Shown: positions 3,238-11,498 of the stretch, piece after piece | Position numbering within the stretch: the stretch's first letter is position 1 | How the letters are laid out: each line of letters begins with the position of its first letter | From: a candidate division TA06 bacterium SM23_40 | Lineage (GTDB): Bacteria; LJUI01; SM1-40 | DNA length: 16,188 nucleotides | Assembly (NCBI GenBank): GCA_001303705.1 | Contig: LJUI01000050.1 | Location: 1-16,188 of the forward strand | Reading direction: 5' to 3' | Position numbers and translations under genes: made by a program | Notes under the pieces: generated by a model | Databases searched by the model: none | Seen by the model: the letters and a program-made list of their open reading frames with translations, nothing else | Told to the model about the DNA's origin: nothing

Positions 3238-3432
3238 TCACTCCTCGCGTTTCACGATGCAATCGACAGGACAGACAGCGACGCACTGAGGACCCTCTTC
3301 GAGATCAGCGCACTCAGTGCACTTTTCGGGGTCGATGACGTAGATGGGGTCGGCTTCGCTGATCGCCTCGTTCGGGCACTCAGGTTCGCAGACTCCGCAC
3401 GCCGTGCAGTCGTCTGTGATCGTCATCGCCAT
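3238..3432 (-). CDS. 2[4Fe-4S] ferredoxin (YfhL/Allochromatium type)
   Basis: Small acidic electron carrier of 64 residues. The first cluster uses C9-x2-C12-x2-C15-x3-C19P; the second uses C38-x2-C41-x8-C50-x3-C54P. The eight-residue gap in the second motif marks the Allochromatium/YfhL subtype, but the C-terminal extension usual there is very short (ends KREE). An extra Cys58 is present. The ATG at 3432 has AGGAGG nine bases upstream. It is the last gene of the operon, 29 bases after flxA, and is the natural candidate for the low-potential acceptor of the bifurcating Hdr-Flx complex; that role is inferred from position. Confidence 0.95.
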
Positions 3433-3461
3433 GTCCAGTCTCCTCCTTTCATGCTGCTCGA

Positions 3462-4295
3462 CTAGTACTCCGGAGGGAGGACCTTCATCTGCTCAGCAGT
3501 GAAGACTGGTCCCTCTTTGCACACGTATACATCAGCGATGTTGCATCTTCCGCACTTCCCCACGCCGCACTTCATCCGGTTCTCCAGTGTGCTGTAGATC
3601 CGATCGTCCGAAAATCCGAGCTTCGTCAGGACCGGCAAGGTGAACTTGATCATGATCGGCGGCCCGCAGACGAGAGCCACCGCATTCTCGCTCGATGGCG
3701 CCGCCTGCTCGAGCACGGTAGGCACGAATCCGATCTTGCCGTCCCAGTCCGGCGTCTCGCCGCCCGGGTCGACCGTCTTCACAAGGGAGACATCATCTCG
3801 CTTCTCCCATTCCTCCAATTCATACTTGTATACGAGGTCGGAGACGGTCCTTGCGCCATACACTATCGTGATATCTTTGAACTGGTCGCGCAGGTCGACA
3901 CAGTTCCAGAGCACCCCCCGGATGGGCGGGAAGGCGATGCCTCCGGCGATAAAGACTATGTTCTTCCCCTTGAACTCGTCGACCGGGAACCAGTTGCCGT
4001 ACGGACCGCGGAACCCCACCAGATCGCCCTGCTCGAGCCGCCACAGGGCGGACGTCACTTTTCCCACCTTGCGGAAACAGCACTCGATGTGATCCTTCCA
4101 GGTGGGTGAGGAACAGATATCGAACGTGCATTCGCCGGCGCCGTACACGGAGAAGAGCCCGAACTGCCCGGCCTTGAACGAGAAGCTCTCCCGAACCCCC
4201 TCATCCTTGAACACAAGCTTGAGCGTCCTCGTATCCGGAGTCTCGTCGATGATCTCAGTGATCTCCATCTGGTGCGGCATATAGATATGACTCAT
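3462..4295 (-). CDS. flxA: FlxA-like FAD/NAD(P)H-binding oxidoreductase subunit
   Basis: NADH-oxidising subunit of the Flx-Hdr complex, of the ferredoxin-reductase family that also includes hydrogenase gamma subunit HydG and sulfite reductase AsrB. It has 277 residues. A flavin-binding barrel covers about residues 5-105 (GQF at 43-45; [10 protein letters not shown] at 55-64). A nucleotide-binding domain begins at [14 protein letters not shown] (114-127) and continues through VYGAR and VCGPPIM. A C-terminal [2Fe-2S] site has C243, C248, C251 and C259. The usual RxYS flavin motif is replaced by TFDICSSP, as in the HydG-like branch. The start at 4295 is preferred over an upstream TTG because GGAGG sits six bases before it. 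The gap of 101 bases after flxB contains hairpins and a palindrome touching this ribosome-binding site. Confidence 0.9.
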
Positions 4296-4305
4296 CCCCC
4301 ATCCT

Positions 4306-4319
4306 CCGGATGCATCCGG
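4306..4319 (-). promoter_or_regulatory. Perfect 14-bp palindrome overlapping the flxA ribosome-binding site region
   Basis: CCGGATGCATCCGG is a perfect palindrome ending within the GGAGG region that precedes the flxA start. A second hairpin, CCAGAG/CTCTGG (about 4331-4347), lies just upstream. Folding of the RNA could occlude translation or mark a processing site; this is inferred from geometry only. Confidence 0.4.
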
Positions 4320-4396
4320 CAAACGAACCAGAGCGTGACTCTGGCCGGCGGGCTGTCATCGGCTGAGCCCCGGCGGCCCGGCTGGACAGCAAAGAA

Positions 4397-9872: not shown

Positions 9873-9954
9873 CGTCTCCTTCTCCTTCCATCTCGCCGCC
9901 GCTTGTGATCCAAGAGGGGTGTATCAGGTGCCGGCGGACGACGGCGCCAGCCGT

Positions 9955-10545
9955 TCACGCTCTGCCGGCTCTATTCGCCGACGACGCGGCACTCTCCTCC
10001 TTCACTCGCCGGAAGATCTCCCGCACTTCACGCACGTTCCCGCTGCGGTGCGGCAGGAGCTTCAGCTTCCCCTTGAAGAAGAGCTTCGGGCCGAGCATCA
10101 CGTCCTTGAAGAACTGGCGCGTGCGCAGATTGTACTTCCCGATGAGGCCGATCTCGTACTGCCGGCCGAAGGTCCTGATGTTCCCGAGGAAGATGTCATT
10201 GAGGGCTGTCACGTATCGATCCTGCACAGGGTAGTGCTCGCGCTGGGCGATGATCCGGAGGGCATCCATCACACCCGTGATATCGACCTCCTGAGGGCAC
10301 CGCGTGGTGCAGGTGACACACGAGGCGCACGTCCAGATGGTATTGCTCGTGAGGGCGAGGTCCTTCAACCCCAGCTGCACGAATCGGATTATCCGCTGCG
10401 GCCCGAAGTCCATCTCCGGGGCTGCCGGGCATCCAGCCGTGCAGTTTCCGCACTGATAGCACTTCGATACGCTCTGGCCGATGATCGCCTCCACCTGTTG
10501 GGTGAAGTCTGACACGACCATCGGGCCCGGAACCTTCAACTGCAT
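9955..10545 (-). CDS. hdrC: HdrC, 2[4Fe-4S] heterodisulfide reductase subunit C
   Basis: Relays electrons from HdrA to HdrB. It has 196 residues, with C29-x2-C32-x2-C35-x3-C39P and C73-x2-C76-x2-C79-x3-C83P and the usual intervening segment FGPQRIIRFVQLGL. The start at 10545 is chosen because GGAGAAAG lies upstream and the family alignment begins there. An apparent 39-residue N-terminal extension is arginine/proline-rich, contains the intergenic hairpin and is not supported. It lies 113 bases after rnfB. Confidence 0.95.
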   Translation of the reverse strand: MQLKVPGPMVVSDFTQQVEAIIGQSVSKCYQCGNCTAGCPAAPEMDFGPQRIIRFVQLGLKDLALTSNTIWTCASCVTCTTRCPQEVDITGVMDALRIIAQREHYPVQDRYVTALNDIFLGNIRTFGRQYEIGLIGKYNLRTRQFFKDVMLGPKLFFKGKLKLLPHRSGNVREVREIFRRVKEESAASSANRAGRA

Positions 10546-10581
10546 CGCTCTTTCTCCGGCAAATGGATCTTCACGATTGCG

Positions 10582-10598
10582 GTCCCCGACGCGGGGAC
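10582..10598 (-). other. Intercistronic hairpin between rnfB and hdrC
   Basis: GTCCCCG and CGGGGAC form a 7-bp stem with a 3-base loop in the 113-base gap. There is no U-tract, so it is unlikely to stop transcription. It may protect or delimit a processed hdrC-fdx message; that is inference. Confidence 0.45.
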
Positions 10599-10658
10599 TC
10601 CACGGGAGCCGTCGACAGCGCCTCTGCGGCGGCGCCACCGGACAGCCCCTCAGTTCGA

Positions 10659-11498
10659 TCAATCCGTATCCTCAGCCTCCGGAGGCCGTGCCCCGTTCCT
10701 AAAAACGAACGCCTTTGTCGGGCAGACCTCGTTCGCCTCCGGCCACTCCTGTATGGTGTCGTAATCGATCTTCGGGAGATTGCCCTCCATCACAATGCCG
10801 CCCCCCGGGGGCGCCTTCTTGCCGGCACACAGGGTGCAGGCGATACACCCAACGGTGCAGGCTGCCTTCACTTCCTTCGCCTTGCCCTGGGAGATACATC
10901 CAAGGTAGAAGCGCTGGGTACGGGGAATGAGCTCGATAATCCCGCGCGGACAGGCCGCTACGCAGAGGCCGCAGCCCGTGCACGCCTCCTCTGATACAAT
11001 AGCAAGCCCGTTGTCGCCCATAGTGATGGCCCCGCACGGACAGGCGCGCTCGCACGATGCCAGTCCCAGACAGCCATACACACACGCCTTCGACCCCGCA
11101 CTCACGAACTGGGCTGCCTTACAATCCTGGATCCCCCGATAAATGAACCGCTCCTTGGCCTCGGCCCTCCCACCCTGACAGCGTACGACCGCGAGGGGGG
11201 GCTCCACGCCCGCGCCGCACTCAACGCCCATGATCGCGGCCACCTGCTCGGCGACCTCAGAACCGCCGGGCACACATCCGCTGACCGGAGCCCTGCCTGC
11301 GACAACGGCCTCAGCGAATCCGCTGCACCCTGCCTCCCCGCAGCTCCCGCAGTTCGTGCCGGGCAGAACCTCGATGATATGCTCAATCTTCGGGTCGACA
11401 TGGACGGCGAACTTGCGAGATGCATAGGCGAGGCCGGCGCCAAACAGCGTCCCGATCCCCGCCATTGTCCCCACAGAATAGATGAGCCTCGGATCCAT
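10659..11498 (-). CDS. rnfB: RnfB-like membrane-anchored iron-sulfur protein (no other rnf genes in view)
   Basis: Homologue of RnfB, the ferredoxin-docking subunit of the Rnf complex. It has 279 residues. A hydrophobic N-terminal helix (about 5-27) is followed by the diagnostic four-cysteine motif C50-x2-C53-x4-C58-x16-C75. Two ferredoxin-type sets come next (C139, C143, C149, C153 and C173-x2-C-x2-C-x3-C183P), then more cysteines (201, 214, 218, 221, 224). The ATG at 11498 has GAGGAG upstream. It opens the operon, 123 bases after the predicted transcription start. No rnfA, C, D, E or G is in the window, so it cannot be assumed to belong to a normal Rnf pump; it may tie HdrABC-Flx to ferredoxin at the membrane. 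The RnfB family call is strong, the role is inferred. Confidence 0.92.
   Translation of the reverse strand: MDPRLIYSVGTMAGIGTLFGAGLAYASRKFAVHVDPKIEHIIEVLPGTNCGSCGEAGCSGFAEAVVAGRAPVSGCVPGGSEVAEQVAAIMGVECGAGVEPPLAVVRCQGGRAEAKERFIYRGIQDCKAAQFVSAGSKACVYGCLGLASCERACPCGAITMGDNGLAIVSEEACTGCGLCVAACPRGIIELIPRTQRFYLGCISQGKAKEVKAACTVGCIACTLCAGKKAPPGGGIVMEGNLPKIDYDTIQEWPEANEVCPTKAFVFRNGARPPEAEDTD

Follow-up and report, generated by a model that had tools for sequence, protein, structure and literature searches.

Genes and signals of the operon

Nine genes lie on the minus strand between positions 11498 and 3238 of the window, by which we mean the whole analyzed stretch of 16,188 nucleotides from contig LJUI01000050.1 of the candidate division TA06 bacterium SM23_40. 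Read from 11498 downward they are rnfB, hdrC, hdrB, hdrA, flxD, flxC, flxB, flxA and fdx, separated by gaps of 113, 82, 40, 48, 3, 63, 101 and 29 bases:

10659..11498, minus strand: rnfB, subunit B of the Rnf complex, 279 aa; FeS and ferredoxin domains, with a hydrophobic stretch at the N terminus
9955..10545, minus strand: hdrC, 196 aa; two CxxCxxCxxxC motifs
8997..9872, minus strand: hdrB, 291 aa; two complete CCG motifs
6953..8956, minus strand: hdrA, 667 aa; FAD-binding and ferredoxin domains, Cys (not Sec) form, without a fused MvhD domain
6377..6904, minus strand: flxD (mvhD), 175 aa; PF02662
5489..6373, minus strand: flxC, 294 aa; C-terminal part akin to FdhB of Fdh-Hdr complexes
4397..5425, minus strand: flxB, 342 aa; akin to sulfhydrogenase beta / AsrA
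3462..4295, minus strand: flxA, 277 aa; FAD/NAD(P)-binding subunit
3238..3432, minus strand: fdx, 64 aa; YfhL-type 2x[4Fe-4S] ferredoxin (NF033683, 88.6 bits against a cut-off of 86)

Pfam and NCBIfam are concordant on these names, apart from flxC, whose family matches are weak only and which was named from its operon position and its relatives in other hdr-flx loci. For flxA, the ATG start at 4295 is preferred, and a longer form from a TTG at 4322 is less likely. A sequence-only reading of this stretch had counted nine genes and named the eight from hdrC to fdx, and those names stand. It left the first gene (10659..11498) unnamed. This gene encodes RnfB, a subunit of the Rnf complex and not a known subunit of Hdr-Flx: its product scores 100 bits against TIGR01944 (cut-off 68.7), matches the solved structure 7zc6_B at 2.4e-64 and retains all Cys residues invariant among eight RnfB proteins. 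The family and structure matches exclude an extra hdrC or a plain ferredoxin.

The other genes fit a bifurcating complex of the FlxABCD-HdrABC type, built on HdrA and dependent on NADH, as the sequence-only reading had proposed, and both homology and gene order support this well. FlxD/MvhD, FlxC, FlxB and an NAD/FAD-binding FlxA are all encoded together with the hdr genes, and Pfam and NCBIfam detect no hydrogenase large or small subunit (mvhA/mvhG) among the nine genes. The two CCG-type motifs of HdrB, earlier described as intact, are confirmed by residue inspection (C9-CC41/42-C79xxC82 and C152-CC192/193-C228xxC231), and both [4Fe-4S] motifs of HdrC are present. HdrA scores 778 bits over residues 3-666 against NF040770 (HdrA2), below the curated cut-off of 1100, a score to be read against the span of a model that includes a fused MvhD part, here the separate gene flxD. 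Judged by homology, the Hdr-Flx assignment appears highly probable, and the predicted complex would couple NADH oxidation by bifurcation to the reduction of ferredoxin and a disulfide. Many HdrA regions occur elsewhere in the genome (G000), together with 11 MvhD matches. Three HdrA paralogues (L002, L004 and L005, on contigs C176 and C86) carry an in-frame TGA (DCSI-TGA) at the second Cys of the window's LDCSQC motif, as would be expected of selenocysteine forms.

Three candidate regulatory signals flank the operon:

11628..11657, minus strand: promoter-like site TTGACA-18-TATAGT upstream of rnfB; 11/12, a consensus match only
11541..11599, minus strand: possible attenuator in the rnfB leader, a GACCAGCC/GGCTGGTC stem followed by TTTTT; leader fold z = -1.03, weak
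about 3145..3205 (approximate), minus strand: terminator-like long-loop hairpin followed by TTTTT, 3' of fdx; z = -1.51, suggestive only

Within the operon region, a minus-strand scan places a strong promoter-like site (11/12) ahead of rnfB only. The same scan found no promoter-like or terminator-like sites in the gaps, including the one between the hdr and flx halves, and the genes are probably co-transcribed, in line with the single operon proposed earlier. In the rnfB leader, a shorter hairpin with ATTTTT behind it competes with the attenuator stem, and both terminator-like hairpins share GACCAGCC. Hairpins in the gaps had been suggested to set subunit ratios. When each intergenic gap of at least 29 bases was folded against 200 dinucleotide shuffles, however, the z-scores of the seven gaps were -0.30, 0.62, 1.19, -1.03, 1.14, -0.33 and 0.84. 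Because these range only from -1.03 to +1.19, the stems in these GC-rich gaps are no more than composition gives, and we dropped the suggestion.

The flanks of the operon hold several other elements. Between fdx and a ccdA-like gene lies a 16-base tandem repeat, CTCCACCTTCAACCAA (4.8 copies, 3036-3112). The ccdA-like gene (DsbD_TM) is followed one base on by a DUF6588 gene (1279-2875, minus strand), and the pair has its own promoter-like site (2994-2966); that a thiol-disulfide gene adjoins the hdr operon is possibly coincidental. An FMN riboswitch (RF00050, 108 bits, 964-1148, minus strand) points off the contig's left end, with an 11/12 promoter-like site at 1181-1152. On the other side, a dispersed repeat, CCGGGGACGTTGGTAGGTTCRGAAGGTTA, occurs in direct and inverted copies at 11698-12212 and 14692 and again on contig C129 (L172), and may be an intergenic element specific to the lineage. 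At the window's far end, outside the operon, is a gene for a pterin-binding methyltransferase (15553-16173); in three other genomes such a gene is found 1.5-2.6 kb downstream of flxA (L216, L219, L233).

Gene order and operon content across genomes

A FlxC profile search of named genomes returned at least 564 relatives, and 80 loci were kept for the comparison of gene order. The flxD-C-B-A order was present in 71 of these and the reverse order in none, and the full hdrC-B-A-flxD-C-B-A run was found in 45, many others being cut by contig ends. These loci come from deltaproteobacteria, Nitrospirae, Actinobacteria, Bacteroidetes, Ignavibacteria, Planctomycetes, Acidobacteria, Chloroflexi, Armatimonadetes, Omnitrophica and others. 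Among loci from other genomes, 31 of 39 had the same flx order and 16 had the full run, in a set that is not fully random, part of it having been drawn from the phylum of genome G134 once a link to rnf was known there; the sole locus of the 39 counted as reversed is a neighboring cluster in L215. The compared genomes share only their domain with the source genome, and in both sets the order seen here is the usual one.

The sequence-only reading had instead presented this order as a mirror image of that in Desulfovibrio vulgaris. We take the D. vulgaris Hdr-Flx cluster to be transcribed from the adh1 side. Its locus tags run flxA (DVU2399), flxB, flxCD, hdrA, hdrB and hdrC (DVU2404) to adh1 (DVU2405) (PMC10920352), which is the same relative order as in the window. 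The claimed reversal therefore rests on a name: "FlxABCD-HdrABC" denotes the complex and not the order of transcription, and once this naming trap is corrected the contrast dissolves. Nor is the order new to the literature. The arrangement hdrCBA-flxDCBA occurs in many phyla according to Ramos et al. 2015, as cited in PMC6103483, and the same name is used for Bilophila (PMC12125255). A mirror order as a new feature is thus ruled out, since it is the most common order in the sampled loci, and taken alone the order adds nothing to what was known.

What is unusual is the content: rnfB as the first gene of the operon, which the sequence-only reading missed, fdx as the last, which it under-described, and an rnf operon elsewhere in the genome that lacks rnfB. 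Of the 48 named hdrC loci that extend far enough upstream, none has rnfB or tatC ahead of hdrC. A crude motif test, which does recognize the window's own fdx, found no gene for a small ferredoxin with two clusters 3' of flxA in any of the 61 named loci that extend far enough downstream. Many deltaproteobacterial and Nitrospirae loci carry a second hdrC-like gene 3' of flxA (L045, L046, L048, L050, L052, L054, L055, L058, L060). The locus is best read as a known complex, known also in its gene order, with rnfB and fdx as uncommon members of the operon.

RnfB and a possible link between Hdr-Flx and Rnf

Only one RnfB was detected in the genome, and RnfA/E and RnfC were each detected once, on contig C124. 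There, an rnf operon (G000:C124:21236-26500; L205, L248) reads rnfC-D-G-E-A-tatC, so that the remaining Rnf subunits are present, and it contains no rnfB, tatC following 34 bases after rnfA. In genomes G058 and G136, rnfB sits between rnfA and tatC, and the rnf-tatC neighborhood recurs in these two, in G321 and G045 and in the phylum of G134. The two contigs have matching base composition, with a tetranucleotide correlation of 0.956, and the assembly has an estimated contamination of 1.3%; both contigs thus most likely come from one organism. As the assembly is 89.8% complete, another rnfB, or a gene for DsrC, may be missing from it.

A link between rnf and hdr-flx is also found in another lineage. 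In G134, G386 and G388, which represent three genera of one phylum, the genes run contiguously as rnfC-D-G-E-A-lipoprotein-rnfB-tatC-hdrC-B-A-flxD-C-B-A. The G134 HdrA is 81% identical over 557 residues to that of a Candidatus Eisenbacteria MAG, a lineage hint only, and the group is perhaps Eisenbacteria-related. G120 has another hdrC-B-A after its rnfD-G-E-A. A narrow search of open papers found no published description of the rnf-hdr-flx linkage. Detachment of rnfB from rnfCDGEA also occurs with no hdr nearby, in G321, G045 and probably G258, and the placement in the window may thus reflect shuffling rather than function. In an RnfB tree, the window protein groups with the detached G321 copy at a weak 84/59, and at 83/82 with G045 added. 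We conclude that the linkage is real but uncommon and that chance relocation is a serious rival to a functional tie.

Under that rival, the locus would be a plain Hdr-Flx operon like those of Desulfovibrio and Geobacter, with rnfB and fdx as chance neighbors tied to it by nothing beyond possible co-expression. The core order is identical to that of dozens of loci that carry neither rnfB nor fdx, and the detached rnfB genes of G321, G045 and G258 have unrelated neighbors, both as this account would have it. It sits less easily with the placement of the genome's sole detected RnfB tight behind the only strong promoter-like site, or with an rnf-hdr-flx linkage kept in three genera of another lineage, and on balance we regard it as possible but rather unlikely. 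We favor, with a modest confidence set by the putative tie to Rnf, a model in which a canonical FlxABCD-HdrABC complex is co-expressed with RnfB and a ferredoxin, the ferredoxin linking Hdr-Flx to Rnf.

In this favored model, which adopts the working scheme for Hdr-Flx (PMC10920352, PMC6687939), NADH would be oxidized by FlxA through its NAD and FAD domains, and the electrons would be relayed via FlxB, FlxC and FlxD to the FAD of HdrA. The likeness of the FlxC C-terminal part to FdhB of Fdh-Hdr suits such a bridging role. At HdrA the pairs would be split: one electron would pass via HdrC and the non-cubane clusters of HdrB to a disulfide, and its partner would reduce ferredoxin. Either the co-encoded ferredoxin or the general ferredoxin pool could then supply RnfB with electrons of low potential. 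RnfB is the subunit on the ferredoxin side of the membrane Rnf complex, whose RnfC, D, G, E and A would come from the other contig. Rnf would reduce NAD+ and pump ions, and the overall NADH:disulfide reduction would thereby be coupled to an ion gradient; operation in reverse, by confurcation, may also be possible. A bolder version has RnfB shared by the Rnf pump and the soluble Hdr-Flx, with a physical Hdr-Flx-ferredoxin-RnfB channel feeding the ion gradient directly and the linkage fixed more than once; this version we consider improbable.

RnfB might instead have parted from Rnf and now serve Hdr-Flx as an additional ferredoxin subunit that anchors it to the membrane. An rnf operon without rnfB is what such a transfer would leave behind, the RnfB of the window combines complete ferredoxin domains with a hydrophobic stretch at its N terminus, and the HdrCBA-MvhD-MetVF complex of Sporomusa ovata is loosely attached to the membrane (PMC9430772). 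However, Rnf would then be without its ferredoxin subunit unless RnfB served both, and the protein is not visibly altered relative to operon-borne RnfB relatives, so that we find this idea highly doubtful.

DsrC, the proposed disulfide partner, has no PF04358 match in the 89.8% complete genome, and the DsrC-linked form of Hdr-Flx was thus not found here; in Syntrophomonas BUT1, too, flx-hdr is present and DsrC absent (PMC6687939). Methylene-tetrahydrofolate reductase (MTHFR) likewise has no PF02219 match in the genome, at the same completeness, and none in the window. MetVF and DsrC were accordingly dropped as partners. A Hdr-type methylene-THF reductase for the Wood-Ljungdahl pathway, similar to HdrCBA-MvhD-MetVF, would account for the shared hdrCBA-mvhD start and would give a place to the pterin-binding methyltransferase gene at the window's edge, but the operon has flxCBA in place of metV and metF, and with no PF02219 in the genome such a function is very remote. 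Returning to the favored link between Hdr-Flx and Rnf, the presence in unrelated genomes of rnfB, or of a whole rnf operon, beside hdr-flx suggests that the two machines, both linked to ferredoxin, operate together. Such a pairing would account for how bacteria lacking DsrC could conserve energy when NADH drives the reduction of a disulfide.

Comparison with known systems

Among the nearest known counterparts is the FlxABCD-HdrABC of Nitratidesulfovibrio (Desulfovibrio) vulgaris Hildenborough (DVU2399-2404), a proposed NADH-dependent bifurcating disulfide reductase with the same seven functions in the same relative order. There, FlxC and FlxD form one protein, FlxCD (DVU2401), and adh1 adjoins the cluster (PMC10920352), whereas in the window flxC and flxD are separate, adh is absent, rnfB comes first and fdx last; the window genome also differs in having no detected DsrC. 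Bilophila wadsworthia and Geobacteraceae (L066 Pelotalea, and L083 Trichlorobacter, in which flxA was not recognized and the contig ends soon after flxB) have the identical hdrC-B-A-flxD-C-B-A order, but in the named loci tested this type lacks rnfB in front of hdrC, and its flxA is not followed by a gene for a small ferredoxin.

The cluster of G134, G386 and G388 resembles the window in having rnfB and hdr-flx on one strand, although it includes the whole of rnf and tatC, whereas the window links rnfB only and rnfCDGEA-tatC lies elsewhere. The hdrCBA-mvhD block is common to the operon and to the HdrCBA-MvhD-MetVF of the acetogens Sporomusa and Moorella, and the sequence-only description of an acetogen-like start continuing with flxCBA in place of metVF is borne out. 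With the methanogen HdrABC-MvhAGD and Fdh-Hdr complexes the predicted complex shares the HdrABC and MvhD core, and its FlxC has a C-terminal part akin to FdhB; the NADH module FlxA/FlxB takes the place of the methanogen hydrogenase or formate dehydrogenase catalytic subunit.
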